Of a stretch of DNA of 64,000 bases, positions 40,002-54,991 are shown in pieces; the first letter of the stretch is position 1; each line of letters starts with the position of its first letter. The translations under genes were made by a program, and so were the position numbers. Origin of the DNA: Lysobacter sp. FW306-1B-D06B (GTDB lineage Bacteria; Pseudomonadota; Gammaproteobacteria; Xanthomonadales; Xanthomonadaceae); the NCBI RefSeq assembly GCF_038446665.1, contig NZ_CP151802.1, forward strand, positions 1,488,001 through 1,552,000, given 5' to 3'. The notes under the pieces are model-generated. The model was not told where the DNA came from, ran no database searches, and was given only the letters and a program-made list of their open reading frames with translations.

Positions 40002-40652
40002 ATGAATCTCGATACCAGGTTTGATCAAATTATTAAGGCCGGAATCACTCCGGCCCTGGCTGTGCATGGTTTCAAGAAGCGGCGCTATGTGTATGAGCGG
40101 AAGGAAGGCTGCATTTCGTACATAGTCGACTTACAGCGCAGTCAATGGAGCAATGCGTCCGCCCTGGATTTCACGATGAACTGTGGAGTCCATATCCCGG
40201 GTGTGATCTCCTTGTTCGCCAACCGCCCAGACCCAAAGAATCCGAAGATCGTTGACTGCTGCGTAGGAAGCCGTCTGGGCATGTTGAGCCCGGACCACAA
40301 GGACAAGTGGTGGAGCGTGACCGCCGAGGATTCGGGCCATGCGCCCGATGACCGCTTGAGCGAGGACCTGCGCGCTGCTATCGAGGGCCTGGCTCTTCCG
40401 TTCCTTCGCCTGTTTCCCTCGCAGTTGGCGGTCGCGGAGTTCCTCTCGGACGTTCCTCGCGAATACCGCCAGGTGTTTCCCATGCATGAGGCTCAGCGAC
40501 TCGCTTACGCAGCGATCATTTTCAGAATGGTCGGCGACTCCAAGGCTGGGTCGGCATTGGAGTCGGCCGTTGCGCTTGCGGCGGGGTCTCCGCTCGAGTC
40601 CACGTTAGCCACATTGGAAGAGTCAATGAGATCCGGACGTTCAGGGGGATAG
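40002..40652 (+). CDS. DUF4304-type immunity protein candidate
   Basis: A 216-aa protein starting one base after the Rhs stop, the classical position of a cognate immunity gene. The N-terminus (FDQIIKAGITPALAVHGFKK) and YVYERKEGCISYIVDLQRSQ match DUF4304 proteins, common immunity partners in polymorphic toxin loci (family knowledge). There is no signal peptide, so it would act in the cytoplasm against the nuclease tip. G+C is close to 50% at its start, well below the flanks, which indicates recent exchange together with the toxin tip. A longer frame to 39747 overlaps the toxin and is not the gene. Confidence 0.85.
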   Translation: MNLDTRFDQIIKAGITPALAVHGFKKRRYVYERKEGCISYIVDLQRSQWSNASALDFTMNCGVHIPGVISLFANRPDPKNPKIVDCCVGSRLGMLSPDHKDKWWSVTAEDSGHAPDDRLSEDLRAAIEGLALPFLRLFPSQLAVAEFLSDVPREYRQVFPMHEAQRLAYAAIIFRMVGDSKAGSALESAVALAAGSPLESTLATLEESMRSGRSGG

Positions 40653-40837: not shown

Positions 40838-43800
40838 GTGCAGACAACACGGATGGGCGCCTGGGGCGCGTTGGCGTTGTGGCTTGGCCTGCTTGCATGC
40901 GCACCCGCGCACGCACAGGAGACCGTATGCGCGCGCGTCAAGATCGAGATCAAGCAGGAGCTGACGCTGGAGCGGCAGGCGTTCGACGCCGAGCTTCGGA
41001 TCACCAACTCGCTGCCGGTCACGCCGCTGACGGAAGTGCTGGTGGAGGTGAAGGTCACCGAAGAGACCGGGCTTCCCGTGCCGATCACGCAGGACCCCAA
41101 CGACCTCAGTGCGAAGTTCTTCCTGCGCCAGACGCAGAAGCAGAACATCGACAACACCACCGGCAGCGGACAGGTCGCGGGCGGCACCACGGCGTCGGTG
41201 AACTGGATGCTGATCCCGGCGCCCGGTGCGGCCGGGACGACGCCGTTCGGCAAGCGCTACCTGGTGGGCGCGACGTTGCGCTACCGCTTCGGCACCGAGA
41301 CGCACGTGCTGGAGTTGAACCCGGACGCGATCACGGTCAAGCCGCTGCCGTCGCTGACGCTGGACTACTTCCTGACCCGCGACGTGATCGCGGACGATCC
41401 GATGACCGCCGAGATCGAGGCGCCGGAACCGTACACGCTGGGCGTGCGCGTGAAGAACTCGGGCATGGCCGCGGCGAAGGAACTGAAGATCAACTCGGCG
41501 CAGCCGCGCATCATCGAGAACGCGCAGGGCCTGCCGATCAGCTTCGTCATCATCGGCAGCTACGTGCAGGACCTGCCGGCAAGCAATTCGCTGCTGATCA
41601 ACTTCGGCGACATTGCGTCCAGCAGCAGCAAGATGGGCCGCTGGCAGATGGAGAGCAACATCGCCGGCAAGTTCGTCGACTTCACGGCGACTTTCACGCA
41701 TTCCGACGAACTGGGCGGCGCGCTGACCTCGCTGTTGCAGGCGACCAATGCGCACCTGCTGCTGCGCGACGTGCGCGTGGACCTGCCGGGGCGCGACTTC
41801 GTGCGCGACTTCCTGGCGCTCGACGGCACCGCGCTCAAGGTCTACGAGTCGGCCGGTCCGGATAGCGAAGTCACCGACCGTTCCAACGAGGCCGGCCTGG
41901 TCGCGGCCGGTGGCGGTTATCGACTGACGCTGCCGCCGACGCAGGGCTTCTTCTACGTGCGCAAGCCGGACCCGTACCGCGGGCAGAAGGCGCTGGGCCC
42001 GGTGATGCGCGCCGACGCCAAGGCGATGGCGGTCGAGAACGTGTGGCTGTCGAAGACCAAGAACGCCGATACGAAGCAGTGGGAGTACTGGTTCAACGTG
42101 TTCGACGTGAACTCGCCGGGCACCTATGAAGTCGCGTTCAACGAGCTGTCGAGCGATCCCAAGCCGCCGGTGCTGCAGTTCATCCCGGATCGCGTGGTGA
42201 AGGAAGGCGATCAGATCGGCTTCCTGGTGGAAGCCTCCAGCCCGATGGGCCGCTCGGTAACGTTGGCGGCCGAACCGTTGCCGACGGGCGCGACCTTCGT
42301 CGACCAGGGCGGTGGCCTCGGCATTTTCGACTGGGTTCCGGCCGTGGGGCAGGCGGGCGATTACCTCATCAACTACCTCGCCAGCGACGGCAGTCTGTCG
42401 GGCACGCGTTCGGCGAAGATCCGCGTGGAATCGAAAGAACCGCCGCCGGGCCCGGCGATTCCGGTGCTGTTCGCGCCGCTGGCCGGTGCCGAAGTGCCGG
42501 CGCTGCGTCCGCAGTTGCAGGTGGTGACGGGCGAGGCGAGCAACGATCCCACGCGCAACGTGCACTTCGAGCTGTACGCCGACGCGGCGATGACCGAGAA
42601 GCTCGGCGAAGGCACCGTGGTCGAGAACCCGGTCTCCGGTCAGCCGACCGGCTGGCAGCCGTCCGATGACCTGGACGACAACCGCCACTACTACTGGCGC
42701 GCGCGGGCGCTCGCCGAGGGCGACATCAACAGCGCCTGGGTGGAAGGCTCGTTCTTCGTCAATCTGTTCAACGATGCGCCGGACAGCTTCAACCTGACCG
42801 CGCCGGCGGCCGGTACGGAAGTCGATGCGCTGACGCCGATCCTGTCGTTGACCAATGCGCAGGACCGCGATGGTGATGCCATCACGTATGCGTTCGAAGT
42901 GTTCACCGACGCCACGCTGGCGCAGCGCCACGACGCCGTGGCCGGCCTGGCGCCGGATGCGAGCGGCACGACGTCCTGGACCGTGCAGGTGCCGTTGGCC
43001 AACCACGCGACGTACTACTGGCGTGCGATCGCCACCGACGAGCACGGCGCGCAGACGATGACGCCGCTGCGTCCGTTCACCGTGCACACCGGCAATGCGG
43101 CGCCGTCCGAGCCGTCGCCGGTCAGCCCGGTCAACGGCGTGGACGTCACCACCGCGGGCAACGCGATGCTGGTGGCCGCCAATGCGAACGACGTCGACGG
43201 TGATGCGCTGACCTACCGCTTCGAGATCGACACGGTCAGCACGTTCGATTCCTCCAACCGCCGCGCGTCCGATGCGATCGCCGCCGGCAGCGACGGCACG
43301 ACGCGCTGGACGGCGTCGGAACTGGTCGAGAACACGCGCTACTTCTGGCGCGTGAAGGCCAGCGACGGTCGCACGGAAAGCGCATGGGCCGGCGGCGAGT
43401 TCCGCATGAACGCGGTCAACGAAGCGCCGGGCACGCCGGTGCCGGCCAACCCGGGTGCCGGTGCATGGGTCTCGACCCTGCATCCGACCTTCGAGTCGCA
43501 TCCCGCGACCGATCCGGACGGCGACCTGCTGCGCTACCGCTTCGAGGTCTATCGCGACAGCGCGTTGCAGGCGCTGGTATCGAGCGGTCTGGTCACCGGC
43601 CTGAGCTGGCAGTCCAGCGGCGCGCTGGCGGACAAGGCCACGCATTACTGGCGTGTGCGCGCGGAAGACGCATCCGGTGCCGCGAGTGCGTGGTCGCCGA
43701 CGATGACGTTGTTCGTCAGCACCGGCACCTACGTCGCGCCGACCATCGCGCTGTCCAAGCCGGCGACGCTGGTCGATGCACGCGACGGCAGCCCGGTGAT

Positions 43801-44695
43801 CGCCTGGGAAGGCAGCGGTCCGGCGATCGAACCGACCGTGGCGTTGTATTACGACGCCGCCGGCTCGGGTTACGCCGGCACGCGGATCGTCGACGGCCTG
43901 CGCCAGGACGCAGGTACGCATTCGGGCACCTACGCCTGGAACACCGCGGGCGTGCCGCCGGGCGTGTACTCGATCTACGGCGTGATCTACGACGACAAGG
44001 GCATGGGCCGCGCCTATGCGCCGGGCAAGGTGGTGGTGCCGTCGCCGGCGCAGCAGGGCACGATCGTCGCCACGCCGCGAACGAGCATGAACCTGCGCGA
44101 AGGCAAGGACACCGGCAGCATCGCGGTGAGCCTGGGGCGTGCGCCGACGGCGGAAGTCACCGTGCCGGTGAGCGTCAACGACGCCAGCGAGGCCTACGTC
44201 ATGCCGCGCGAGCTGGTGTTCACGCCGGCCAACTGGTCCACGTCGCAGTCGGTGACGGTGGTGGCCGTGCACGACAAGGTGCGCGACGGCGACCAGCCCA
44301 TCACGGTGACCGTCGGCAAGGCGGTGAGCGTCGATCCGGACTACATCGGCGTCTCGGCCGCGCCCGTGAACGGCACCGTGGTCAACCAGGACTTCGACAT
44401 CAACATGGGCCTGGCGATCACCAGCTACCAGCTGGTGAGCAAGAAGCGTGACTGGTTGACCGGTTTGTGGACCTACCGCTACCGCCCCGTGTTGACTAAC
44501 ATCGGCCCACGCGTGGGGGGTGTGTTCGCGATCGTGGACAAGGCACCTGGCTTCACAGTGCTCTGGGGGGCACTGACCTACGGCGCGGTCGACCAGAACG
44601 AATCGGTGGTCAGCAGCCAGGACATCATCCTGGTCGGCCAGACCGATCTGGGCAGCCAGCAGCCGCCGTTGTCGTGGATCTTGAGGGGATGGTGA
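40838..44695 (+). CDS. Large exported Ig/FN3-repeat protein coupled to the secretion operon
   Basis: A 1285-aa protein. I take GTG 40838, preceded by GGGGAAGGA; ATG 40853 is the alternative. The signal peptide (ALALWLGLLACAPAHA) precedes a domain of paired conserved-repeat and Ig-like strands. Four tandem FN3-like modules of about 105 residues follow (42452-43729; each ends in H/R-YYWR-A or similar, such as THYWRVRAEDASG). A Calx-beta-like domain is next (LREGKDTGSIAVSLGRAPTA), then a final domain (QLVSKKRDWLTGLW). The stop overlaps the pseudopilin ATG as TGATG (44693-44697), tying it to the T2SS-like operon. It may be a substrate or a component. No anchor motif is seen. Confidence 0.82.
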   Translation: MQTTRMGAWGALALWLGLLACAPAHAQETVCARVKIEIKQELTLERQAFDAELRITNSLPVTPLTEVLVEVKVTEETGLPVPITQDPNDLSAKFFLRQTQKQNIDNTTGSGQVAGGTTASVNWMLIPAPGAAGTTPFGKRYLVGATLRYRFGTETHVLELNPDAITVKPLPSLTLDYFLTRDVIADDPMTAEIEAPEPYTLGVRVKNSGMAAAKELKINSAQPRIIENAQGLPISFVIIGSYVQDLPASNSLLINFGDIASSSSKMGRWQMESNIAGKFVDFTATFTHSDELGGALTSLLQATNAHLLLRDVRVDLPGRDFVRDFLALDGTALKVYESAGPDSEVTDRSNEAGLVAAGGGYRLTLPPTQGFFYVRKPDPYRGQKALGPVMRADAKAMAVENVWLSKTKNADTKQWEYWFNVFDVNSPGTYEVAFNELSSDPKPPVLQFIPDRVVKEGDQIGFLVEASSPMGRSVTLAAEPLPTGATFVDQGGGLGIFDWVPAVGQAGDYLINYLASDGSLSGTRSAKIRVESKEPPPGPAIPVLFAPLAGAEVPALRPQLQVVTGEASNDPTRNVHFELYADAAMTEKLGEGTVVENPVSGQPTGWQPSDDLDDNRHYYWRARALAEGDINSAWVEGSFFVNLFNDAPDSFNLTAPAAGTEVDALTPILSLTNAQDRDGDAITYAFEVFTDATLAQRHDAVAGLAPDASGTTSWTVQVPLANHATYYWRAIATDEHGAQTMTPLRPFTVHTGNAAPSEPSPVSPVNGVDVTTAGNAMLVAANANDVDGDALTYRFEIDTVSTFDSSNRRASDAIAAGSDGTTRWTASELVENTRYFWRVKASDGRTESAWAGGEFRMNAVNEAPGTPVPANPGAGAWVSTLHPTFESHPATDPDGDLLRYRFEVYRDSALQALVSSGLVTGLSWQSSGALADKATHYWRVRAEDASGAASAWSPTMTLFVSTGTYVAPTIALSKPATLVDARDGSPVIAWEGSGPAIEPTVALYYDAAGSGYAGTRIVDGLRQDAGTHSGTYAWNTAGVPPGVYSIYGVIYDDKGMGRAYAPGKVVVPSPAQQGTIVATPRTSMNLREGKDTGSIAVSLGRAPTAEVTVPVSVNDASEAYVMPRELVFTPANWSTSQSVTVVAVHDKVRDGDQPITVTVGKAVSVDPDYIGVSAAPVNGTVVNQDFDINMGLAITSYQLVSKKRDWLTGLWTYRYRPVLTNIGPRVGGVFAIVDKAPGFTVLWGALTYGAVDQNESVVSSQDIILVGQTDLGSQQPPLSWILRGW
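42452..43729 (+). repeat. Four tandem ~105-residue FN3-like modules (coding)
   Basis: Each module opens with a Pro-rich PxxGxxV strand, has [DN]xDGDxxxYxFE in three of four copies, and closes with a YYWR/YFWR/HYWR-A strand. The pattern is that of sugar-binding or adhesive FN3-type arrays. Confidence 0.7.
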
Positions 44696-45126
44696 TGGGC
44701 AAGGGAATGCGCCGTGCAGCGGCGGGCTTCACGCTGCTGGAACTGCTGGTAGTGGTGGTGATCATCGGCGTGCTGGTGGCCTATGTCGCGCCGCGCTACT
44801 TCCAGCAGATCGGCAAGTCCGAGCGCACCGCTGCGCTCGGGCAGATCGATGCGCTGCGCAAGGCGATCGACGCCTACTGGCTCGATACGGGCCACTTCCC
44901 ATCATCGGAGCTGGGCCTGTCGTCGCTGACGACGCGTCCGGAAGGCGAGAAGAAGTGGAACGGTCCTTACCTGCAAGGCCGCGTGCCGCCCGATCCGTGG
45001 GGGAATGCGTACGTGTACCGCGTGCCGGGCACGTCGGGGGACTACGACCTGTTTTCGTACGGCAAGGACGGACGACCGGGCGGCGAAGGCGATGACGCCG
45101 ACATCGGTGTCGATAGCGAAGGCTAA
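44695..45126 (+). CDS. gspG: Type II secretion major pseudopilin (GspG-like)
   Basis: A 143-aa pseudopilin. The prepilin-peptidase site G-FTLLELL, with Glu at +5, follows a short basic leader (MGKGMRRAAA) and precedes a hydrophobic helix (VVVVIIGVLVAYVAPRYF). The C-terminal half matches GspG (ALRKAIDAYWLDTGHFPSSE; PDPWGNAYVYRVPG; DLFSYGKDGRPGGEGDDADI), including the acidic Ca-binding loop. The ATG overlaps the stop of the preceding giant gene and follows GAGGGG by 6 bases. It is the expected main subunit of the pseudopilus. The closest hallmark is T2SS rather than type IV pilus. Confidence 0.92.
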   Translation: MGKGMRRAAAGFTLLELLVVVVIIGVLVAYVAPRYFQQIGKSERTAALGQIDALRKAIDAYWLDTGHFPSSELGLSSLTTRPEGEKKWNGPYLQGRVPPDPWGNAYVYRVPGTSGDYDLFSYGKDGRPGGEGDDADIGVDSEG

Positions 45127-45351
45127 GGGAAGGCCAACCACAACAAGAGCAAGGGGAAACGTGGGTCGCGACAACGGCGATGGGGATGCCGGACGCGGAT
45201 CACGGGAATGACGGAACGGGGGGAACCATCGTTGCGCGGGTACAGGCACGGCATCCGGCGGGCCCGCCGTGATGCGTGCCATGGCACGCGCGGCGGTGGT
45301 CGCCAGGCAGGGGCATAGGCGTCCGAAGGACGCGCCAATGAAGGTCGGTTC
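45127..45351. other. Gap between pseudopilin G and F genes
   Basis: 225 bases. Short open frames are present (longest about 36 codons from an ATG near 45209), but none has coherent codon use or a recognisable motif. No promoter or terminator stands out. The gap is unusual inside an otherwise tightly packed operon. Confidence 0.35.
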
Positions 45352-46533
45352 GTGAAGCATCGGGTGTTGGTTTCCATCGCTGGGCAGTCGCAGTGGCTGG
45401 ACGTGGAGGCGGATTCGATCGGCGCCGCCACCGCCAAGGCGCTGCGCATGGGCGGGCGCGTGTTGCGCATCGAGCCGGTGATGGAACGGCGTGCACCGGC
45501 GCGGGTGTCGTATTCCCCCACGGTCTTCCTGCAGGAACTGCTGACGCTGTTGCGCGCGGGCCTCAACGTGGTCGAGGCCATGGAGGCACTGGAACGCAAG
45601 GAAGCCAACGCCGGCTTCCGGCAGGTGCTGGGCCGTCTGCTCGGCGGCCTGCGCGAAGGCGTCCCGCTGTCGCAGGCGATGGCGCGCGAAGGCCTGTTGT
45701 TCCCGCCGGTGCTGATCGCCGGCGTCGCGGCCAGCGAAACCAGCGGCGGTCTGGCGGACACGCTGGACCGCTATCTCGCCTACGACGCCAAGATCAACCA
45801 GATCAAGCGCAAGGTCGCGGCCAGCGCCATCTATCCGCTGCTGCTGATGGGCGTCGGCGGCGCGGTGGTCCTGTTCCTGGTCGCCTACGTGCTGCCCAAG
45901 TTCAGCGTGATCCTGGAGGGCAGCGGGCGTCCGGCCGGCGGCGCGACGGCCGTGCTGCTGCGGGTGGGCGAGTTCATCCAGCAACACCCGGTGCTGTCGG
46001 GTGCATTGCTGGCCGCCGCCGCCGCGGGCTGCGCGTGGCTGGTGGCGACCGAGCGCGGACGTCGCGCGGCGCTGGCGCAGGCGACGCGCGTTCCGGTCCT
46101 GTCCGACATCTTCGTCACCATGGGCCTGTCGCGCCTGTACCGCACGCTGGCGCTGCTGCTCGACAGCGGCATCCCGCTCGTGCAGGCGATGGACATGGCG
46201 CGCGGCATCGTTACGCCTGCGCAGTCGGACGAACTCGCGCTGGCCATCACGCGACTGCGCGCGGGCCAGATGTTCACCGAATCCCTGGCCGGCACCAGCC
46301 TGATACCGCCGATCGCCGAAAGCCTGCTGCGCGTGGGCGAGCGCGGCGGCGCGCTGGCGGAGATGAGCGGCAAGCTCGCCAACTTCCTGGACATCGCGCT
46401 GGACCGCAAGGTCGATACCTTCTCGCGTCTGTTCGAACCGTTGCTGATGTCGGTCATCGGCCTGGTGATCGGCGCGATCGTGCTGATGATGTATTCGCCG
46501 ATCTTCGATCTGGTGGGGAGCGTGGGCCGGTGA
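45352..46533 (+). CDS. gspF: Type II secretion inner-membrane platform protein (GspF-like)
   Basis: A 393-aa GspF/PilC-family protein starting at GTG 45352. Two T2SSF domains are visible. The first (residues about 55-180) contains FLQELLTLLRAGLNVVEAME and REGVPLSQAMAREGLLFPPV; the second (260-390) contains LYRTLALLLDSGIPLVQAMD and LRVGERGGALAEMSGKLANF. Each is followed by membrane helices (LLMGVGGAVVLFLVAYVLP; SVIGLVIGAIVLMMYSPIF). It forms the inner-membrane platform with GspE and the L/M-type proteins. Its stop overlaps the GspE start as GTGA. Confidence 0.93.
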   Translation: MKHRVLVSIAGQSQWLDVEADSIGAATAKALRMGGRVLRIEPVMERRAPARVSYSPTVFLQELLTLLRAGLNVVEAMEALERKEANAGFRQVLGRLLGGLREGVPLSQAMAREGLLFPPVLIAGVAASETSGGLADTLDRYLAYDAKINQIKRKVAASAIYPLLLMGVGGAVVLFLVAYVLPKFSVILEGSGRPAGGATAVLLRVGEFIQQHPVLSGALLAAAAAGCAWLVATERGRRAALAQATRVPVLSDIFVTMGLSRLYRTLALLLDSGIPLVQAMDMARGIVTPAQSDELALAITRLRAGQMFTESLAGTSLIPPIAESLLRVGERGGALAEMSGKLANFLDIALDRKVDTFSRLFEPLLMSVIGLVIGAIVLMMYSPIFDLVGSVGR

Positions 46534-48221
46534 ACGTGGACGTCACTCCGCCGCGGCCGGAACTGCGCGTCGACCAGGTGCGCGACGTGCGCACGCGCGC
46601 GCTGACGGCCGGGCAGTCGTGGCTGCCGATGCTGCAGGACGAACTCGCGCTGGACGCTGCGATGTTCACCGTGCTGCTGGGCGAGTTGTCCGGCGTCGAG
46701 CCGATGCCGTCCGTGGAGTTGTACGCGGCCACGCCGGACTTCGACGTCGCCGCCTACGTGGAATGCGCGCGTCGCGATTGCGTGGTGCTGCGCGATCCGC
46801 AGCGCGGGCTGAGCCTGGTGCTGGCCGATCCGTTCGCGGAAGACACCGTGCAATGGGCGCAGTCCGCGATCCGCGAGCCTTGCGCCCTGCGGCTGGCGCA
46901 TCTGGACGAACTGCGCGCGTACTTGGCCCAGGCCGAGCAGACGGTGCGTGCGACCGAAGGCAGCGTCGGCGGCCTGGGCACCGTCGATGCCGTCGGCGAA
47001 GACGAGCTGCTGTCGCTGGAGAAGATCGAGGCCGACGCCAGCCCGGTCGTGCGCGTGGTCAGCTCCATCCTGTACGACGCGCTCAAACAGGAAGCTTCGG
47101 ACATCCACCTCAAGTCCACGCCCGTGGGCATGAGCGTGAAGTTCCGCATCGACGGCGTGCTGGTGCCGGTGTCGGACGTCAGCGGCGCGGACACCGCGCA
47201 GCGGATCATTTCGCGCATCAAGGTGATGTCCGAGCTCGACATCGCCGAGCGGCGCGTGCCGCAGGACGGCCGCTTCCGCGTCAAGGTGCGCGACGGGCAG
47301 GTGGACTTCCGTGTGTCGATCATGCCCAGCATCCACGGCGAGGACGCCGTGCTGCGTCTGCTCGACCGCAGCACGCTGACGGGCAGTCGCGACCAGATGC
47401 TGCAGCTGGCCGACCTGGACCTGGCGCCCGATGCGCTTTCGACGCTGCGCAGGCTGGTCGCCCAGCCCTACGGCATGGTGCTGGTGACCGGCCCGACCGG
47501 CTCGGGCAAGACCACCACGCTGTACGCCGCCATCGACGAGATCAACAGCGGCCACGAGAACATCATCACCATCGAAGACCCGGTGGAGTACCAGCTGCCG
47601 GGCGTGCTGCAGATTCCGGTCAACGAGAAGAAGGGACTGACGTTCGCGCGCGGTCTGCGTTCGATCCTGCGTCACGACCCGGACAAAATCATGGTGGGCG
47701 AGATCCGCGACGAGGACACGGCGCAGATCGCCGTGCAGGCGGCGCTGACCGGCCACCTGGTGCTCACCACCGTGCATGCGAACAACGTGTTCGACGTGGT
47801 CGGGCGACTGCTGCACATGGGCGTGGACCCGTACAGCATGGCGTCCGCGCTGGTGGGCGTGTGGGCGCAGCGCCTGCTGCGCGTGAACTGCACCGAGTGC
47901 GCGCACGCCTATCAGCCCGATGCGGAAACGCTGGCGATGTCCGGGCTGGACGCCGGCGAACTGGTCGGCAAGCCGTTGCGCTGCGGGCGCGGCTGCGGCC
48001 ATTGCCGTGGCACCGGTTACAAGGGCCGCCGCGTGGTCGCCGAGTACCTGGTGATGAACGACACGCTGCGCGAGCTGGTGGCCACCAAGGCGCCCGTGAC
48101 CGCATTGCGCGCGGCCGCAGCGCGACAAGGCGGCGGAAGTCTGCGTGCGGTCGCGCTGGATCTGTTCTTCCGGGGCGACACCACCCTGGCCGAAGTCAAC
48201 CGCGTCACCTTCGCGGAGTAA
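46530..48221 (+). CDS. gspE: Type II secretion ATPase (GspE-like)
   Basis: A 563-aa cytoplasmic ATPase of the GspE/PulE/PilB family that powers pseudopilus assembly. It starts at GTG 46530, overlapping the F stop. It has an N-terminal N1E/MshEN-like region, then LKQEASDIHLKSTPVGMSVK, Walker A GPTGSGKTTTL, the Asp-box IIITIEDPVEYQ-like strand, Walker B MVGEIRDEDTAQ and the His-box LTTVHANN. A CxxC/CxxC zinc motif (NCTEC and GCGHC) marks the GspE/PilB class. The order F-E-L-N-O-P-D resembles MSHA/type IV pilus clusters as much as canonical gsp operons. Confidence 0.93.
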   Translation: MNVDVTPPRPELRVDQVRDVRTRALTAGQSWLPMLQDELALDAAMFTVLLGELSGVEPMPSVELYAATPDFDVAAYVECARRDCVVLRDPQRGLSLVLADPFAEDTVQWAQSAIREPCALRLAHLDELRAYLAQAEQTVRATEGSVGGLGTVDAVGEDELLSLEKIEADASPVVRVVSSILYDALKQEASDIHLKSTPVGMSVKFRIDGVLVPVSDVSGADTAQRIISRIKVMSELDIAERRVPQDGRFRVKVRDGQVDFRVSIMPSIHGEDAVLRLLDRSTLTGSRDQMLQLADLDLAPDALSTLRRLVAQPYGMVLVTGPTGSGKTTTLYAAIDEINSGHENIITIEDPVEYQLPGVLQIPVNEKKGLTFARGLRSILRHDPDKIMVGEIRDEDTAQIAVQAALTGHLVLTTVHANNVFDVVGRLLHMGVDPYSMASALVGVWAQRLLRVNCTECAHAYQPDAETLAMSGLDAGELVGKPLRCGRGCGHCRGTGYKGRRVVAEYLVMNDTLRELVATKAPVTALRAAAARQGGGSLRAVALDLFFRGDTTLAEVNRVTFAE

Positions 48222-48226
48222 TCGTC

Positions 48227-48985
48227 GTGCCAAGCCCTCCCATCCACCTCTACGTCGCCAGCACCACGTGGGTCGCCCTGCGACCCGGCGACGCGGGCGG
48301 CGCGATCGCCGGCGAGCACGGCGGTGGCGAACCCGATGCGGCGGAGTGGGCGCGCATCGTGCAGACGCTGTCAACGCACTTCAAGGCGATCGGCACGGTG
48401 CGCCTGGTGCTGTCGGCGCGGCTGTGCCGCTTCCTCGTCGCGCCGTGGGTGTCGGACTGTTTCACCGGCGCGTCGATCCGCGCATCGGTGATGGCGATGT
48501 TCGCCGGACACGAAGTAAGCGACACCTCGCACCACGTCGAGATCGACTGGCCCGCTTACGGGCAGCCGGTGCCCGCGGTCGCCTATCCGCGCGCGCTGGT
48601 CGAAACCGTGCGCAACGCGCTGCAGACCGGCGGCGGCCGCGTGCAGTCCACGGTCGCCAGCGTGGTGCCGGTGCTGCGGCGCTACGGTGGCACGCTCGCA
48701 TCGACGGCGAGCGCGCTGCTCGCATATGCCGAGGACGACGGCATCACCGGCATCACCCTGGAGCGGGGCCGGCTGGTGCAGGTGGAAACCCTGTCCGCGC
48801 AGGGGCACGGGCTGGCTGATGCGACGCTGTGGCTGTCGCGCAAGCGTTTCGCGTTTGCCGACGACAACGCGTTGCATTGGCTGGGTTCGGCCGCGCCGCC
48901 GGACGCGTTCGCCGGCACGCTGTTGCCCGTTCAAGGCGATGCGCCGGCATCGGCCGGTCATGCACTGGTGGCCGCATGCGCATGA
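48227..48985 (+). CDS. Actin-fold GspL/PilM-like cytoplasmic platform protein
   Basis: A 252-aa protein starting at GTG 48227 (GGAG 8 bases upstream), directly after gspE. It lacks membrane segments and has the alternating strand/helix character of the PilM/GspL cytoplasmic domain: IHLYVASTTWVALRP, TVRLVLSARLCRFLVAPWVS, and AYAEDDGITGITLERGRLVQ. In this position a PilM-type protein would link the ATPase to the PilN/PilO-like proteins encoded next. Direct similarity is weak, so the assignment leans on position and fold pattern. Confidence 0.6.
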   Translation: MPSPPIHLYVASTTWVALRPGDAGGAIAGEHGGGEPDAAEWARIVQTLSTHFKAIGTVRLVLSARLCRFLVAPWVSDCFTGASIRASVMAMFAGHEVSDTSHHVEIDWPAYGQPVPAVAYPRALVETVRNALQTGGGRVQSTVASVVPVLRRYGGTLASTASALLAYAEDDGITGITLERGRLVQVETLSAQGHGLADATLWLSRKRFAFADDNALHWLGSAAPPDAFAGTLLPVQGDAPASAGHALVAACA

Positions 48986-49497
48986 GTCTTCTGCCGCGGA
49001 TCGAATGGCGCCTGGGGGCGCAGCGGCCGGGTGCCCTGGCGTGCGCTCTGCTCGCATGCGTCGTGCTGACAATCGGCGTGCTCGCTTATGCGCGCTCCGG
49101 CGTGGACGCACGATTGCAGCATCGCGAACGGCAACTGGACAAAGCGATGCAGCGCCGCCCGGCGGCGACTCCGCGTCGCGCTCCGCCGAGCGAACAGCGC
49201 AGTGCGACACAGGTGCGTCAGCTCCAGTCGCAGATCGCGCTGCTCAATCGCGACTGGGTGAAGCTGCTGCAGGAGATCGTTCCCGCCAAGGGCGCGGTGC
49301 GCCTGCTGGGCGTGGACGTCAACGCAACCACCGCCGCGATCCGCATCACCGGACATGCCGGCGATTCGGCCGAAGCGAACGCCTACGCGGAGGCATTGCA
49401 GGCGCGCGGGCACGGGCTGCACGACGTGCGGCTGCTGTTGCTGGAGCGCAAGAACGGCGGCATCCATTTCGAAGTGAGCGCGCGATGGGCGCAGTAG
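48976..49497 (+). CDS. PilN/GspL-C-like bitopic membrane protein
   Basis: A 173-aa protein: a short cytoplasmic start (MRMSLLPRIEWR), one membrane helix (ACALLACVVLTIGVLAY), a basic coiled segment, and a periplasmic ferredoxin-like half (RLLGVDVNATTAAIRITGHA; RLLLLERKNGGIHFEVSARW). This is the PilN layout. The ATG at 48982 overlaps the preceding stop as ATGA; ATG 48976 has the better spacing to GGTGG. It is expected to sit in the inner-membrane platform with the PilO-like protein. Confidence 0.7.
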   Translation: MRMSLLPRIEWRLGAQRPGALACALLACVVLTIGVLAYARSGVDARLQHRERQLDKAMQRRPAATPRRAPPSEQRSATQVRQLQSQIALLNRDWVKLLQEIVPAKGAVRLLGVDVNATTAAIRITGHAGDSAEANAYAEALQARGHGLHDVRLLLLERKNGGIHFEVSARWAQ

Positions 49498-50048
49498 ACC
49501 CGCGGAAACTGGTGTGGGCGCTCAACCGTGGCTACCTTCGCCAGGGTGCGGTGTTCGTGTTGGCGGTGGCCGGAGCCGTCGTCGCGCTGGGCCTGATGCT
49601 CTCGCTCGCGCTGGACGCCCTGCGTTTGCACCGTACCGAGCAGGCCCTGAGCGCACGCCTGGAAGCGCTTCGCGCCGCACCGCAAGCGATCGCCCAGCAG
49701 GCTCCCGACGATGCCCTGCCGTTGCCGGAGCTCTCGCAGCGTTTCCACATCAACCGCCGCATCCTCGATGCCCTCAGCTCGGCGGCAGTGGCGCCGGAGC
49801 AGATCCGCTTCAAGTTCGAGAACGTCGACGACGCGGGCTTCGTGCGGCAGACGGCGGTGTTCACGCTCAAGGCGCCGTGGAGCGAGATCGCCAAGGCGCT
49901 GGCGGCATTGCAGGCCTCGGACCGCTCGCTCTACATCGCCCGACTGCGCCTGGAACGCGAGCAGCCCGGCGATCCGCTGGTCACCGCGGAGCTGCAGGTC
50001 GCCGTCGCGCTGACCACGCCGGCAAGCGAGGGAGATCAGGCGCCGTGA
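49485..50048 (+). CDS. PilO/GspM-like bitopic membrane protein
   Basis: A 187-aa protein with a membrane helix near the N-terminus (GAVFVLAVAGAVVALGLML), a coiled-coil stretch (RTEQALSARLEALRAAPQAI) and a periplasmic alpha/beta domain (QIRFKFENVDDAGFVRQTAV; DRSLYIARLRLEREQPG). That is the architecture of PilO and GspM. It overlaps the upstream gene by 13 bases and the next by a GTGA junction. It probably pairs with the PilN-like protein. Confidence 0.7.
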   Translation: MGAVDPRKLVWALNRGYLRQGAVFVLAVAGAVVALGLMLSLALDALRLHRTEQALSARLEALRAAPQAIAQQAPDDALPLPELSQRFHINRRILDALSSAAVAPEQIRFKFENVDDAGFVRQTAVFTLKAPWSEIAKALAALQASDRSLYIARLRLEREQPGDPLVTAELQVAVALTTPASEGDQAP

Positions 50049-50539
50049 AGCGCTACTTCCGGCCAATGGCGTATTCGTCGATCGTCGTCCTGGCGGCGCT
50101 GGCGCTGTTCGGCGGCGAGTCGCCGGCCGACACCACGACGGTGGAAGCGGCGCCGGTGCGCACGACGACGGCCCCGATCGCGCGCGCGCAACGCAAGTCC
50201 GAACTGCCCACGGTGCAGGAGCGCGAGAGCGATGCGTTCCCCGCTGCGTTGTTCGCGGATGACGCCGCGCCGCCGACACCCGTTCCCGCGCCAGCTGCGC
50301 CTGCGGCCCCCGTTGCCGCCGCGCCGGCCGACCTGAAAGTGCTGGGCTGGATGCAGTCCGGGTCGGTGCCCCACGTGTTCGTGGAATGGAACGACACCAG
50401 CTACACGCTCAAGCGCACCGAGATGGTCGAAGACCTGTACCGCTTCGACGAGATCGGCGGCGGCTTCGCCAACTTCACCTATATGCCCACGGGGGAATCG
50501 CGGCGCTATGCCGTGAGCGACCCCGCGCTGCTGGAATGA
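50045..50539 (+). CDS. GspC/PilP-like periplasmic linker protein
   Basis: A 164-aa protein beginning at GTG 50045, overlapping the previous stop. One membrane helix (YSSIVVLAALALFGG) precedes a Pro/Ala linker (residues about 80-100) and a small beta domain (DLKVLGWMQSGSVPHVFVEW, MVEDLYRFDEIGGGFANFTY) that looks like the homology region of GspC or PilP. In both families this domain contacts the secretin. It is encoded directly before the secretin gene. Confidence 0.7.
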   Translation: MKRYFRPMAYSSIVVLAALALFGGESPADTTTVEAAPVRTTTAPIARAQRKSELPTVQERESDAFPAALFADDAAPPTPVPAPAAPAAPVAAAPADLKVLGWMQSGSVPHVFVEWNDTSYTLKRTEMVEDLYRFDEIGGGFANFTYMPTGESRRYAVSDPALLE

Positions 50540-50550
50540 TCGAGGTAAGG

Positions 50551-52854
50551 ATGCACACACGTTATGCGCGTCGCGCGCGGGGAATGCTGGTGCTGGCGGC
50601 CGCCGTGCTGCTGGCCGGCTGTGGCGCGGCGGGACAGTTCCGCAAGGCCGACCGCTTGTTCGAGGACGGCGACTACGTGCAGGCGGTCGCCCAGTACGAG
50701 GCCGTCTCCGCGGCCAGTCCCCACGATGTGCGCTACCGCCAGCAGTATCTGTTCAAGAAGCGCCTTGCCCTGGAGACCCTGTTCCGCGACGGCGAGCGCG
50801 CGCGCCAGCAGGGCAATTTCGCGCAGGCCGAGGGCGCGTATCAGACCATCCTGCAGATCGAGCCCGGCAACAGCGCGGCGCAGGAATGGCTGCGTCGCCT
50901 GGCGGCGATGCGTCGGCACAACGAAGAGTTGATGAAGATCGACGAGCTGATTGCCGCCGGTGAGCCGGACCAGGCCGAGGAGCGCGTGCGCGACGTGCTG
51001 GCCGAAGCGCCGGACAACCTGCGCGCGCAGAACAGCCTGGACCGCATCCGCACCGCGGTGGCGAGCAAGAAGGCCCGGGAGGACACCCTCGGCGAGCAGT
51101 TCCGCAAGCCCGTCACGCTCGAGTTCCGCGATGTGCCGGTGAAGACCGCGTTCGAAGTGCTGTCCAACGCGTCGGGCATCAACTTCGTCTACGACCAGGA
51201 CATCCGCCCGGACCTGAAAGTCACCGTGTTCCTGCGCAAGACGCCGCTGGACGAGGCCATCCGCATGATCGGCCTGTCGACGAACCTGGAAACGCGGCCG
51301 CTCAACAACAACTCGGTGATGGTCTTTCCGCGCACGCCGCAGAAGATCAGCGATTACCGCCAGCTCAACATCCGCACGTTCTACCTGGCCAACGCGCAGG
51401 CCAAGACCGTGGCGGAAACGCTCAAGACCATCCTCAAGAGCGAGAACCTCGTCGTCGACGAGAAGCTCAACATGCTGGTGATGCGCGACAGCCCGGACGC
51501 CATCCGCCTGGCCGAACGCCTGGTCGCACTGCAGGACATCGGCGAACCGGAGGTGGTGCTCGATGTGGAAGTGCTGGAGGTCAAGCGCTCCTCGCTGCTC
51601 GACATGGGCATCAGCCTGCCGGACGAGATCGCCTTCTCCGTGGTCGGGCCGGGGCAGACCAGCACCGCATTGCCGATCAGCCAGCTGCGCAACCTCAACT
51701 CCGATTCGATCTTCGCCACCGTGCCCAATGCCACGGTGAAGCTGCACGACGAGCGCTCGGACGCGAAGATCCTCGCCAATCCGAAGATCCGCGTGAAGAG
51801 CAAGGAGAAGGCGAGCATCCTCATCGGCGACAAGGTGCCGGTGATCACCTCCACGTCCACTTCGACGGGCTTCGTGTCGGAAACGGTCAACTACGTGGAC
51901 GTGGGCCTGAAGCTCGAAGTGGAGCCCGCCGTCTACGCAGGCGACGAGGTTTCGATCAAGGTGAGCCTGGAGGTCAGCAACCTGGTGCGCGAGATCGTGA
52001 CCAAGTCGGGCACGCTGTCCTATCAGATCGGTACGCGCAACGCGCAGACCGTGCTGCGCCTGAAGGACGGCGAGATGCAGATCCTCGCCGGCCTGATCAA
52101 CAAGGAGGATCGACAGGTCGCCAACGGCTGGCCGTTCATCTCGCGCTTCCCGATCCTTAACCGCATCTTCGGCACGCAGAAGGACGACGTCCAGAACACG
52201 GAGATCGTGCTGTCGATCCGGCCGCGCCTGGTCCGTGGCGTGCGTCATGCCGGGCTGGACGAGATGGAGTTCGAGAGCGGCACGGCTTCGTACCTGCGTG
52301 GCCGCAATGGCGCGCCGCCGGCCGAGCCGGAAGTCCAGGCGCCTGCCGCGACGGCGCCGACCGGCGCGGGCGCGGCGTCACCGGGCGCCGCCGTTCCGTC
52401 GGCGCTGCCGTCCGATGCGCCTGCGCAGGCGCAGCCCTTGCCGCCTTCGTCCAACGTCCTGCTGGACTGGGCCGTGCCCGGCGAGGTGCGCGCCGGCGAA
52501 CAGTTCACGGCGGTGCTCAACATCAGCGCGTTGAAGGCGATCGAGCAGCTCCCCGTGCTGATCGGTTTCGATCCCAAGGTGCTGCAGGTGGTCGGCATCG
52601 AGGAAGGCATGTTCATGTCGCAGGGCGGCGGCCAGAGCACGCTGACGCAGCAGGTGAACCTGTCGGACGGAAAGATCGTCGCCACCGCGACGCGCCAGGG
52701 CACGGCGGTGTCGGGCCAGGGCACGCTGCTGCAGATCAACTTCCGCGCGTTGGCCGCGGCCGACCGCACCGACGTGCGCGTGCTGTCGGCCACGCCCGCG
52801 CCGGAGCAGGTGGGGCCCGCGCGCACCGCCAGCGTCGCGATCAAGGTCCGATGA
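50551..52854 (+). CDS. gspD: Lipoprotein secretin with TPRs and C-terminal cohesin-like domain
   Basis: A 767-aa outer-membrane channel. The lipobox LLAGC follows the signal helix. Residues about 25-150 resemble TPRs (ADRLFEDGDYVQAVAQYEAV), replacing a GspD N-terminus. A secretin/STN domain follows (VTLEFRDVPVKTAFEVLSNA), then an N1 domain (NIRTFYLANAQAKTVAETL) and the secretin core (KASILIGDKVPVITSTSTST; GEMQILAGLINKEDRQVANG; GWPFISRFPILNRIFG). A Pro/Ala linker leads to residues 635-767, a cohesin-like beta-domain (FTAVLNISALKAIEQLPVLI). Start is ATG 50551 after GAGG; ATG 50536 is possible. The lipid anchor could remove the need for a separate pilotin (inference). Confidence 0.87.
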   Translation: MHTRYARRARGMLVLAAAVLLAGCGAAGQFRKADRLFEDGDYVQAVAQYEAVSAASPHDVRYRQQYLFKKRLALETLFRDGERARQQGNFAQAEGAYQTILQIEPGNSAAQEWLRRLAAMRRHNEELMKIDELIAAGEPDQAEERVRDVLAEAPDNLRAQNSLDRIRTAVASKKAREDTLGEQFRKPVTLEFRDVPVKTAFEVLSNASGINFVYDQDIRPDLKVTVFLRKTPLDEAIRMIGLSTNLETRPLNNNSVMVFPRTPQKISDYRQLNIRTFYLANAQAKTVAETLKTILKSENLVVDEKLNMLVMRDSPDAIRLAERLVALQDIGEPEVVLDVEVLEVKRSSLLDMGISLPDEIAFSVVGPGQTSTALPISQLRNLNSDSIFATVPNATVKLHDERSDAKILANPKIRVKSKEKASILIGDKVPVITSTSTSTGFVSETVNYVDVGLKLEVEPAVYAGDEVSIKVSLEVSNLVREIVTKSGTLSYQIGTRNAQTVLRLKDGEMQILAGLINKEDRQVANGWPFISRFPILNRIFGTQKDDVQNTEIVLSIRPRLVRGVRHAGLDEMEFESGTASYLRGRNGAPPAEPEVQAPAATAPTGAGAASPGAAVPSALPSDAPAQAQPLPPSSNVLLDWAVPGEVRAGEQFTAVLNISALKAIEQLPVLIGFDPKVLQVVGIEEGMFMSQGGGQSTLTQQVNLSDGKIVATATRQGTAVSGQGTLLQINFRALAAADRTDVRVLSATPAPEQVGPARTASVAIKVR

Positions 52855-53330
52855 GCCGGCGCCGCACCGCGGGTTTCAGCTTCATCGAACTGATGGCGTC
52901 GCTCGCCATCATGGCGGTGCTGCTGCTCATCGCGGTGCCGGCGGCGCGCATGGCGACGCAGCGCTACCGCGAGGCCGAGCTGCGCACCGCGCTGGCGCAG
53001 ATCCGCGGTGCGATCGATCGCTACAAGCGCGCGGCCGAGCAGGGCAGGGTCGAGGTCGAAAGCGGCGCCAGCGGCTATCCGCCGGACCTCACGGTGCTGG
53101 TGGAAGGCGTGGAGGACGTGAGCACGCCGGAGCGCAAACAGCTGTACTTCCTGCGGCGTTTGCCGCGCGACCCGTTCTACGCGGGAAGCGAAGCATCGCC
53201 GGAGGACACCTGGGGCCTGCGCAGTTACGACAGTCCTCCCGACGATCCGGCTCCCGGCGATGACGTGTTCGACGTGCACAGTCTTTCCGACGGCGTCGGT
53301 CTCAACGGTGTTGCCTACAAGGACTGGTGA
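52851..53330 (+). CDS. Type II secretion pseudopilin (second)
   Basis: A 159-aa pseudopilin whose ATG overlaps the secretin stop (ATGA). The cleavage site G-FSFIELM with Glu at +5 follows MSRRRTA and leads into a hydrophobic helix (ASLAIMAVLLLIAVPAARM). The C-terminal domain carries LYFLRRLPRDPFYAG, DTWGLRSYDSPPDDPAP and DVHSLSDGVGLNG, a GspG-like layout with an acidic loop. It is probably a minor or alternative G-type subunit, since the operon already encodes one G. Confidence 0.87.
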   Translation: MSRRRTAGFSFIELMASLAIMAVLLLIAVPAARMATQRYREAELRTALAQIRGAIDRYKRAAEQGRVEVESGASGYPPDLTVLVEGVEDVSTPERKQLYFLRRLPRDPFYAGSEASPEDTWGLRSYDSPPDDPAPGDDVFDVHSLSDGVGLNGVAYKDW

Positions 53331-53333
53331 GCG

Positions 53334-53714
53334 ATGGATGCTTCGCGTCGACGTGGATTCAGCCTGATCGAACTGCTGGTGGTGATGGCGATCATCGCCG
53401 CGCTGGTGACGATTGCCATGCCGCGCTACCAGGCGTCGGTGCAGACGGCCCGCCTGACCGCGCTCAAGGAAAACCTGCGCATCCTGCGCGCGAGCCTGGA
53501 CCGGTATTACGAGGACAAGGGCGTCTATCCCGAATCGCTGCAGGCGTTGGTGGAAGCCAATTACCTCAAGGGCGTGCCGATGGATCCGGTCAGCGAAAGC
53601 GCGCAGAGCTGGGTGCTGGTGGACGATCCCGAAGGCGAGGTCGATGGCATCGTCGACGTCCGCAGCGGTGCGCAGGGCGCAACGCCCGATGGCGTGGCTT
53701 ACGCGGAACTGTGA
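53334..53714 (+). CDS. Type II secretion pseudopilin (third)
   Basis: A 126-aa pseudopilin starting 3 bases after the previous stop. G-FSLIELL with Glu at +5 follows MDASRRR; the helix is VVMAIIAALVTIAMPRY. The compact C-terminal part (LRASLDRYYEDKGVYPESLQ; YLKGVPMDPVSESAQSWVLV) is shorter than classical GspG but of that type. The next gene begins on its stop (GTGA). Confidence 0.87.
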   Translation: MDASRRRGFSLIELLVVMAIIAALVTIAMPRYQASVQTARLTALKENLRILRASLDRYYEDKGVYPESLQALVEANYLKGVPMDPVSESAQSWVLVDDPEGEVDGIVDVRSGAQGATPDGVAYAEL

Positions 53715-54220
53715 CCGTGCGACGGCAGTCGGGATTCGCCTACCTGTTCCTGCTGTTCCTGCTGGCGTTGATGGCGGTCTCGGCGCTGGCGCTGGCAAGC
53801 ATCCAGCACATCGACCGGGTCCGTTCCAACGAGGCCGAGCTGCTGCGCATCGGCGACGAGTTCAGGCGCGCGATCATCCGCTATCGCGATGCCGGGATGC
53901 CGCGTGCTTATCCGCGCACGCTCGAAGAGTTGTTGCTCGACCGTCGCATGGGCCGCAACCAGCGCCACCTGCGCAAGATCTACGCCGACCCCCTGACCGG
54001 CAAGGCGGAGTGGGGCCTGGTGCTGGAGCAGGGGGCCATCGTGGGCGTCCACTCGTTGTCCGAACGCGTCCCGCTGAAGGTCTCCGGCTTCGATCCGGAT
54101 GACGCGGACTTCGAGAACGCGCTGCGTTACGCCGACTGGGTGTTCAGGGCGAGTCCCGTCCCGGCCGAAATGCGCCTGCCGGGCCGGCCGCCGTCATCAC
54201 AGCGCGCTGCAGGCGGTTGA
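53711..54220 (+). CDS. Atypical pseudopilin-like protein without Glu5
   Basis: A 169-aa protein starting at GTG 53711, overlapping the previous stop. It opens like a pseudopilin (VRRQSG-FAYLFLLFLLALMA), but the residue at +5 is Phe (F-A-Y-L-F), where pilins carry the Glu needed for assembly and N-methylation. The C-terminal domain (RRAIIRYRDAGMPRAYPRTL; RKIYADPLTGKAEWGLVLEQ; GVHSLSERVPLKVSG) retains the pseudopilin pattern. GspK-type tip subunits also lack Glu5, so it may cap the pseudopilus. Its last 24 bases overlap the 3' end of the convergent rhodanese gene. Confidence 0.8.
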   Translation: MTVRRQSGFAYLFLLFLLALMAVSALALASIQHIDRVRSNEAELLRIGDEFRRAIIRYRDAGMPRAYPRTLEELLLDRRMGRNQRHLRKIYADPLTGKAEWGLVLEQGAIVGVHSLSERVPLKVSGFDPDDADFENALRYADWVFRASPVPAEMRLPGRPPSSQRAAGG

Positions 54221-54991
54221 CTGCGCGGGACCGGCGGTCCGCTTCTGGTCCTGGCGCAGGTGCGTATGGATCAGGGCGACGAGTCGATCGCGGTCGCCGG
54301 TCCAGTACAGCACCGGCCCGCCTTTGCCATCCAGTGACGCTTCCAGCCGTGCGCTCGGGATGAAGGTGTCCGCGATCAGGACCTTCCTTCCGGTCGAGCC
54401 TTTGGTGGCCTGCCGGATCCGGTGTTCGGACAGCACCGGGGCATAGCCGTCGCTCAGCGCGACCGCGGAAACGTTGCGGTCCGACAGCGCGGCCGATACT
54501 TCCGCATCGGACAGGCGGCTCACTTCCAGTCGTTCCGCACGACGCTGCACCTGCGCCCACGCGGCGATGCCGCCGTCGATGATCCTGAAATTCTTCAGGC
54601 CTTCATCGCGCAGGCGCTTGCACAGCAGGAAGGCGTCGGAGCGGAACTTGCCGCCGTCGTAAAGCACGACCGCGCCGGGACGGTCGCGAAGCAGGCGGGA
54701 CACTTCGGCCACGCTGGCGTGTTGCGCGTCGGGGATGTGGAAGGACGCGTAGTCGCTCCGGCTGCGCAGGTCATAAAGCACCGGCTTCGCGCCAAGCGCG
54801 CGCGCATCGATCAGGCAGGTTCGGTCCTCGGGCGCCAGCGGTGCCTGCGATGGCGATGCAGGTGCCTGCGCGGCCGCCAGCGGGCAGGTGGTGGCCGCGA
54901 TTGCCGACGTCGGCAACGCGAGTGCGAAGGCGAGGGTGCACAGCGTGGCCGCAAGAAGCGGGCCTTTGCGGTGTCGAGCGGGTCCAGTCAT
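54197..54991 (-). CDS. Exported rhodanese-fold protein lacking the catalytic Cys
   Basis: A 264-aa protein. The signal peptide (LLAATLCTLAFALALPTSAIA) makes it periplasmic. A rhodanese domain covers residues about 65-150 (VLYDLRSRSDYASFHIPDAQ; LRDEGLKNFRIIDGGIAAWA). The active-site loop is VVLYDGGKFRSD: the nucleophilic Cys is replaced by Asp112, so sulfur transfer is unlikely. A beta-rich C-terminal domain follows (VLIADTFIPSARLEASL; GPVLYWTGDRDRLVALIHTH). It is convergent with the last pseudopilin gene and overlaps it by 24 bases. A binding or redox-scaffold role is possible. Confidence 0.82.
   Translation of the reverse strand: MTGPARHRKGPLLAATLCTLAFALALPTSAIAATTCPLAAAQAPASPSQAPLAPEDRTCLIDARALGAKPVLYDLRSRSDYASFHIPDAQHASVAEVSRLLRDRPGAVVLYDGGKFRSDAFLLCKRLRDEGLKNFRIIDGGIAAWAQVQRRAERLEVSRLSDAEVSAALSDRNVSAVALSDGYAPVLSEHRIRQATKGSTGRKVLIADTFIPSARLEASLDGKGGPVLYWTGDRDRLVALIHTHLRQDQKRTAGPAQSTACSAL

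Follow-up and report, generated by a model that had tools for sequence, protein, structure and literature searches.

A reduced type II secretion-like operon adjoining Rhs and Ig-domain exoprotein genes in Lysobacter suggests a dedicated toxin export line

The window analysed here, a stretch of 64,000 nucleotides from Lysobacter sp. FW306-1B-D06B (assembly GCF_038446665.1, contig NZ_CP151802.1, positions 1,488,001 to 1,552,000), carries at 44695-54220 an operon that resembles a type II secretion system (T2SS) of reduced content. Its eleven genes are confirmed as open reading frames (ORFs), listed in Table 1 with their surroundings. A preliminary description, made from the letters alone, had reported that most stops and starts overlap, and this is confirmed; G and F are separated by 225 bp. 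The operon itself is real, and the unit extends beyond the limits first given to it, running upstream through IgCalx, the gene of a 1280-aa immunoglobulin (Ig)-domain exoprotein that ends at 44695. It forms the 3′ end of a 33-kb plus-strand block, 21533-54220, of Sec-exported giants, the upstream border of which is provisional. This linkage to an Ig protein, an Rhs protein and a candidate immunity gene had been overlooked.

Table 1. Genes of the reduced secretion operon, of the block upstream and of its flank (positions in the window)
Gene product	Position	Strand	Basis or remark
GspG, major pseudopilin	44695..45126	+	TIGR01710 157.9 bits, above the equivalog cut-off of 88.85
GspF/PilC-like platform protein (F)	45352..46533	+	PF00482; GspF model 212.8, below 424
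Assembly ATPase (E)	46530..48221	+	PF00437; own clade in trees
Cytoplasmic partner (M position)	48227..48985	+	Fused with the next gene in every betaproteobacterial locus covering it but L038
PilN/GspL-C-like membrane protein (weak)	48976..49497	+	Profile comparison
PilO/GspM-like protein	49485..50048	+	Profile comparison
PilP/GspC-HR-like protein (not significant)	50045..50539	+	Position and length
Predicted lipoprotein secretin (D)	50536..52854	+	TPR, STN, Secretin_N, Secretin, Cohesin; lipobox read by eye
Pseudopilin 2	52851..53330	+	PF07963
Pseudopilin 3, N-terminus G-like	53334..53714	+	Profile matches
Pseudopilin 4, without Glu+5, tip candidate	53711..54220	+	Sequence
Ig_1243, 1220-aa exported protein with IPT/TIG-type Ig domain	21533..25195	+	Domain scan, signal-like start
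Two tandem paralogous glycine-rich proteins, ~515 aa	25342-26886, 26960-28507	+	Signal-like N-termini
Bacterial Ig-repeat protein, 2146 aa (Big_7, Big_13)	28560..35000	+	Signal-like N-terminus
Rhs/YD-repeat polymorphic toxin	35066..40000	+	Signal-like start; PT-HINT domain; tail resembling Tox-REase-9, under its cut-off
DUF4304 protein, candidate immunity gene	40002..40652	+	PF14137 61.4 bits, above 23.2 (frame from 39900)
IgCalx, 1280-aa Ig-domain exoprotein	40853..44695	+	Signal-like start; adjoins the operon's first gene
Rhodanese-domain protein, signal-like N-terminus	54197..54991	-	Overlaps the end of pseudopilin 4; recurrent IgCalx neighbour

The operon is recognisable by Pfam matches to T2SSG, T2SSF, T2SSE, Secretin and N_methyl. 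Its GspG is the sole component above any equivalog cut-off among the curated models for T2SS, type IV pili and the mannose-sensitive haemagglutinin (MSHA) pilus, in keeping with the first view of the system as non-canonical. The ATPase falls under both GspE (479.2 against 630.25) and PilB (446.3 against 675.65), the platform protein under GspF, and the secretin under all three models applied to it, namely PilQ (129.2 against 284.35), GspD (116.7 against 351.35) and MshL (81.9 against 250.2). E, F and the secretin belong to no curated class tested.

The secretin is short and ends in a cohesin domain. By Pfam it also carries TPRs and an STN domain (PF07660), which we take to be the N0 fold, and the contrast drawn earlier with a classical, N0-bearing GspD is thereby withdrawn. 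No operon protein exceeds the cut-off of the curated models for GspH, GspI, GspJ or GspK, and no prepilin peptidase lies within the operon, as had been noted at the outset for H, I, J and the peptidase. Pfam finds no second ATPase among the operon proteins and no retraction ATPase in the operon, and neither the P gene nor the 14 members of set A4 show a T2SSC or PDZ match.

Profile comparison with hhalign relates the O gene to PilO (E 3.6e-5), and PilO from the Protein Data Bank is matched at E 0.0037. Profile comparison yields no significant homology to PilP for the P gene, to PilM or its actin fold for the M gene, or to PilN for the N gene. The composition proposed initially stands for the ORFs, G, F, E, the secretin, the pilins and PilO, and does not extend with significance to the actin-fold, PilN-like and PilP-like proteins. 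M and N are joined in a single frame (427-539 aa between stops) in L051 and in every betaproteobacterial locus covering them apart from L038; the fused frame may represent a GspL-like layout, and the 13 fused relatives give weak matches, two to PilN and one to GspL_C. Glu+5 is present in 17 of 17 matched relatives of G and in none of the 18 regex matches among relatives of pseudopilin 4, at least two of which are mis-registered. GspK likewise lacks Glu+5, and pseudopilin 4 is a candidate for the tip.

IgCalx is closely joined to this operon. Its last base, 44695, also opens a G start codon, both in the window and in locus L034 (Lysobacter sp. MMG2), which is nearly the window itself and has an IgCalx of 100% identity. 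It is 52-54% identical across ~98% of its length to the betaproteobacterial relatives listed. An AlphaFold2 model of the 525 N-terminal residues of the mature protein is all beta (pLDDT 88.8) and matches generic Ig-domain structures only, with low TM-scores. Signal-like N-termini occur in 79 of 80 IgCalx sequences, and a signal-like hydrophobic segment precedes the first domain in 38 of the 38 RHS relatives in which that domain could be placed; these calls come from a crude hydropathy window, not a dedicated predictor. A Microbulbifer homologue of IgCalx (L062:9971-17620) contains RTX calcium repeats, in 14 stretches, despite its signal-like start.

The association of IgCalx, Rhs and machine recurs in relatives. 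Our genome scan gave 116 confirmed IgCalx loci, of which the best 80 by similarity to the query were kept (L029-L108), a choice that favours near relatives; the profiles used to class the loci derive from the loci themselves. Machine genes lie downstream of IgCalx in 27 of the 80, or in 26 of 56 where 4 kb or more of downstream sequence is covered. When upstream coverage reaches 3 kb, an RHS match is found upstream in 24 of 26 machine loci, the exceptions being L050 and L044, the latter with an RHS fragment downstream; of the non-machine loci with the same coverage, 18 of 35 have an RHS match. A G start codon lies at most 30 nt from the IgCalx stop, mostly overlapping it, in 16 of the 25 machine loci with both hits, and a second RHS gene sits between IgCalx and G in L042, L049 and L086. 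The arrangement is conserved in Lysobacterales, Burkholderiales, Rhodocyclales, Nitrosomonadales, Neisseriales and one Moraxellaceae metagenome-assembled genome (MAG). An IgCalx tree of 53 rows groups the machine-bearing rows, 18 in number, without exception in a single clade of 22 (SH-aLRT 100). Its four remaining members, Methylococcales and a betaproteobacterial MAG, show no machine in the sequence covered, which for L085 amounts to 141 bases downstream. This distribution fits a single recruitment of the machine, followed by loss or transfer.

The Rhs protein has the features of a polymorphic toxin. It contains the Rhs core (TIGR03696, 79.8 against a cut-off of 32.5), YD repeats (PF05593) and a PT-HINT domain (44.4 against 27.7), while its tail scores 21.6 for Tox-REase-9, below the cut-off of 27.3; the relative in L053 scores 73.7. 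Against the Lysobacter arvi protein, identity reaches 82.6% over the first 350 aa and 55.7% over the core, and the tail is unalignable. Across the relatives, a constant Rhs body bears C-terminal toxins that vary, with amidase, DNase and REase types represented. Domain scans covered ten of the 24 tails identified beyond the window. Above cut-off these include one Tae4, one NucA/NucB and one Tox-REase-9, with HINT in three (one of them also with the REase), and one holds a sub-threshold phospholipase A2. A plus-strand frame of at least 90 aa stands between RHS and IgCalx in 40 of 42 loci, which is weak evidence for immunity genes, since GC-rich DNA yields such frames by chance. Among ten such frames scanned, one SUKH and one Imm26 lie above cut-off, one DUF4304 below, and one is LRR; the remaining scanned frames returned nothing informative, apart from one considered below. 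Rhs repeats in this genome are confined to the window gene and one other place, ~3384.0-3385.3 kb, with frames of 213 and 649 aa.

Phylogeny sets the ATPase apart as well. In trees of E, reduced machines with and without Rhs share one clade, separate from the GspE, XpsE and PilB rows. This clade holds 22 of 45 rows in a first tree (SH-aLRT 99) and 17 of 33 (100/99) in a more careful tree that drops 12 of the 45, including the long branches L111, L143 and L150. The PilB labels, most GspE labels and one MSHA-like label were assigned by size and neighbours; those checked are L002 and L023 (GspE above cut-off) and L136 (an MshE-related cyclic di-GMP motif, and its operon). MshE is the sister of the clade in the careful tree (96/87), but the test does not reject a union with GspE (p-AU 0.102). 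Rows linked to Rhs make up a group of 11 (91/92, not starred). By its ATPase, the operon belongs to a clade of its own kind, whose members are reduced machines resembling the T2SS and have a secretin of cohesin type; the ATPase appears nearest to that of MSHA. The MSHA-like gene order proposed initially is not supported: an MSHA-type operon, L193, reads I-J-K-L-M-N-E-G-pilins (by position), against G-F-E-(M-N)-O-P-D-pilins here, and a second ATPase was not found among the operon proteins. An MSHA gene order is rejected on this comparison with one operon.

The genome, a single contig of 4.24 Mb, contains three secretin and six T2SSE matches. An ATPase at 1631 kb is GspE (689.9 against 630.25); after it come three N_methyl matches and, at 1642 kb, a secretin. 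This marks an Xps-type T2SS at ~1631-1643 kb, the remaining Xps genes of which are recognised only as ORFs of fitting size, and confirms the expectation that a canonical T2SS exists elsewhere. The genome's single Peptidase_A24 match lies at 1692 kb, away from the operon and beside an ATPase taken for PilB. A PilT/PilU-family ATPase (432 bits) is found at ~1567.5 kb (L026:5209-6372, minus strand), ~25 kb downstream of the operon, and two more PilT-sized matches at 3918-3920 kb. The T6SS (type VI secretion system) sheath protein VipB has no match in this genome.

Around the core of the block, strong relatives of Ig_1243 (>500 bits) occur in L044, L050, L053, L054, L091 and L103, and relatives of the 2146-aa Ig-repeat protein stand 5′ of RHS in many loci. 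The second glycine-rich protein (26960-28507) has no Pfam match. The rhodanese family is found near IgCalx in many loci, with 39 profile hits, two of which are the window's own gene. A transglutaminase-core family gives 33 hits, often beside the rhodanese gene where the machine is absent.

Published work offers a precedent. Activity of the Rhs bacteriocin Bcn-A is found in the supernatant and is lost in an xpsD mutant (PMC7259588). A survey gives the T2SS as the export route of many Rhs toxins; in its section on gene neighbourhoods, the secretion genes named as linked are those of T5SS, T6SS, T7SS, PVC and MuF, not T2SS (Zhang 2012, PMC3482391). T2SS and MSH are among the filament classes, and both have homologues of PilMNOP (PMC6668835). 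The parts seen of PMC2864759 and PMC10470514 contain nothing on a link between machine and Rhs, and searches of an open-licence library listed no title or abstract start that reports the linkage of machine, Rhs and Ig protein.

Taken together, the gene block suggests that an export line is devoted to an interbacterial toxin. We think it somewhat probable, judging from gene content and neighbourhood, that the reduced T2SS-like machine is dedicated to exporting the linked Sec-exported giants across the outer membrane: IgCalx and, most likely, the Rhs and 2146-aa proteins. The earlier expectation of a different substrate gains support here, and its best clue is the upstream set of Ig protein, Rhs and immunity gene. 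In the proposed sequence of events, Sec would export the cargo, in line with the signal-like sequences observed, and the cargo would fold in the periplasm, where, by analogy with known Rhs biology, the Rhs shell may enclose the toxin tail and HINT may process it. The single genomic prepilin peptidase would cleave the pseudopilins, and the ATPase with F would polymerise G, the three minor pseudopilins being placed at the tip. The pseudopilus would then drive the cargo through the lipid-anchored secretin. More speculatively, the Ig-chain protein, together with the secretin's cohesin domain, might retain or present the cargo at the surface. As the outcome, neighbouring bacteria lacking the matching immunity gene would be killed.

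Among the 53 loci that lack the reduced machine, five have canonical-type T2SS genes close to IgCalx, which lends modest support to IgCalx as a possible T2SS substrate. Flanks carry GspD in L065 (463.2 against 351.35), GspF just under cut-off in L069 (420.9 against 424), a partial GspE in L080 (464.4) that groups with XpsE in the careful tree, and T2SSC in L101 (40.4 against 27). In L073, the frame that opens after the IgCalx stop corresponds to the N-terminal part of E, with 164-171 bits for the GspE type versus 36 for that of the window.

Several observations weigh against dedicated export of the linked giants. Those canonical neighbours (four of the five are in the IgCalx tree) need four changes, the same as shuffled labels, and may be separate events or chance. 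Comparable gene sets that show neither an IgCalx nor an RHS hit occur in other genomes (L109-L114, L122), near-complete in L109, L110 and L113 and cut, rearranged or partial in L111, L112, L114 and L122; the machine type therefore extends beyond the Rhs link. Conversely, many loci show the order Ig-Rhs-IgCalx with the machine absent from the sequence covered, and L050 and L044 have machine genes without an upstream RHS. Eleven genomes with IgCalx and no machine beside it hold 2-6 secretin matches each, and those secretins may serve the cargo there. Among 143 genomes sampled across the class and 250 across the order, with the best 7 or 4 secretin candidates per genome scored, both markers occur together only in the window's own genome; positives are few (5 and 5; 5 and 4), too few for a co-occurrence statistic, and with so few secretin candidates the result is weak, yet it gives no support for linkage. 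As for the toxin features, Rhs tails are not replaced in every case, since that of the window can be aligned in 14 of 51 relatives, partly via HINT; 4 of the 10 scanned tails matched no family, and a supposed immunity frame scanned in L062 encodes a transposase. Finally, the Rhs protein could leave by way of this genome's Xps system.

This last point underlies the strongest alternative, in which the machine exports only the Ig-domain protein, perhaps with other adhesive giants, and the neighbouring Rhs protein leaves through the Xps-type T2SS. We consider it unlikely, though it accords with the position of IgCalx, which touches G as the nearest partner, with the two loci that have machine genes and no upstream RHS, with the Xps-type system of this genome, and with the dependence of Xanthomonas Bcn-A on Xps (PMC7259588); against this, nearly all machine loci have RHS upstream, and three have a copy between IgCalx and G. 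Decidedly less probable is a short MSHA-like surface pilus or adhesin scaffold, with the giants decorating the surface independently. The four pilin-like genes and an ATPase sister to MshE would suit such a structure, but the major subunit exceeds the GspG equivalog cut-off, a retraction ATPase is absent from the operon, with PilT/U-type matches elsewhere in the genome, and the gene order is unlike that of MSHA. An ordinary second T2SS for general exoenzymes, its linkage due to hitch-hiking, is very improbable: similar machines without this cargo exist and the markers rarely co-occur in wide samples, but the arrangement is conserved from Lysobacterales to Neisseriales and a Moraxellaceae MAG, and gene ends overlap.

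Returning to dedicated export of the linked giants, we advance only tentatively, and with more doubt than assurance, the broader view that the block may be a new delivery route for polymorphic toxins. A reduced machine of the type IV filament family, with a cohesin-tailed secretin, would be devoted to the export and display of Rhs and Ig-rod partners, analogous to CdiB or a T6SS-toxin apparatus. In surveys, the outer-membrane crossing of Sec-exported Rhs toxins in Gram-negative bacteria is mostly a T2SS label (Zhang 2012). A T2SS-like operon tied genetically to an Rhs toxin in several orders makes the export question directly testable. The cohesin-type secretin clade also falls outside the curated GspE, GspF, GspD, PilB, PilQ and MshL models tested.

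Compared with known systems, the operon shares with the canonical T2SS (Gsp/Xps/Xcp) a GspG above cut-off, F, E, a PilO/GspM-like protein, a secretin and minor pseudopilins, the last of which lacks Glu+5, as well as substrates with Sec signals. It differs in having no GspH/I/J/K above cut-off, no PDZ-type GspC and no peptidase of its own, in its short secretin with TPRs and cohesin, and in an E that belongs to its own clade. To the MSHA pilus it appears related by the sister position of E to MshE in the careful tree; gene order, content and the MshL score differ; from the type IVa pilus it is set apart by scores below the PilB and PilQ models. Geobacter Oxp, reportedly an 'atypical type II secretion system' (the wording of Mehta, 2006), is likened to it by title alone, as an atypical T2SS with a secreted partner; the cargo there is a putative multicopper protein. 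Unlike a T6SS Rhs effector, the window's Rhs protein shows no PAAR domain at E values up to 0.1, and its genome has no VipB match; T6SS export of this protein is rejected on these two grounds. With Rhs toxins such as Bcn-A of Xanthomonas perforans it has in common the YD repeats, a variable C-terminus and immunity nearby, and the difference here is a reduced T2SS-like operon that is physically linked to the toxin.

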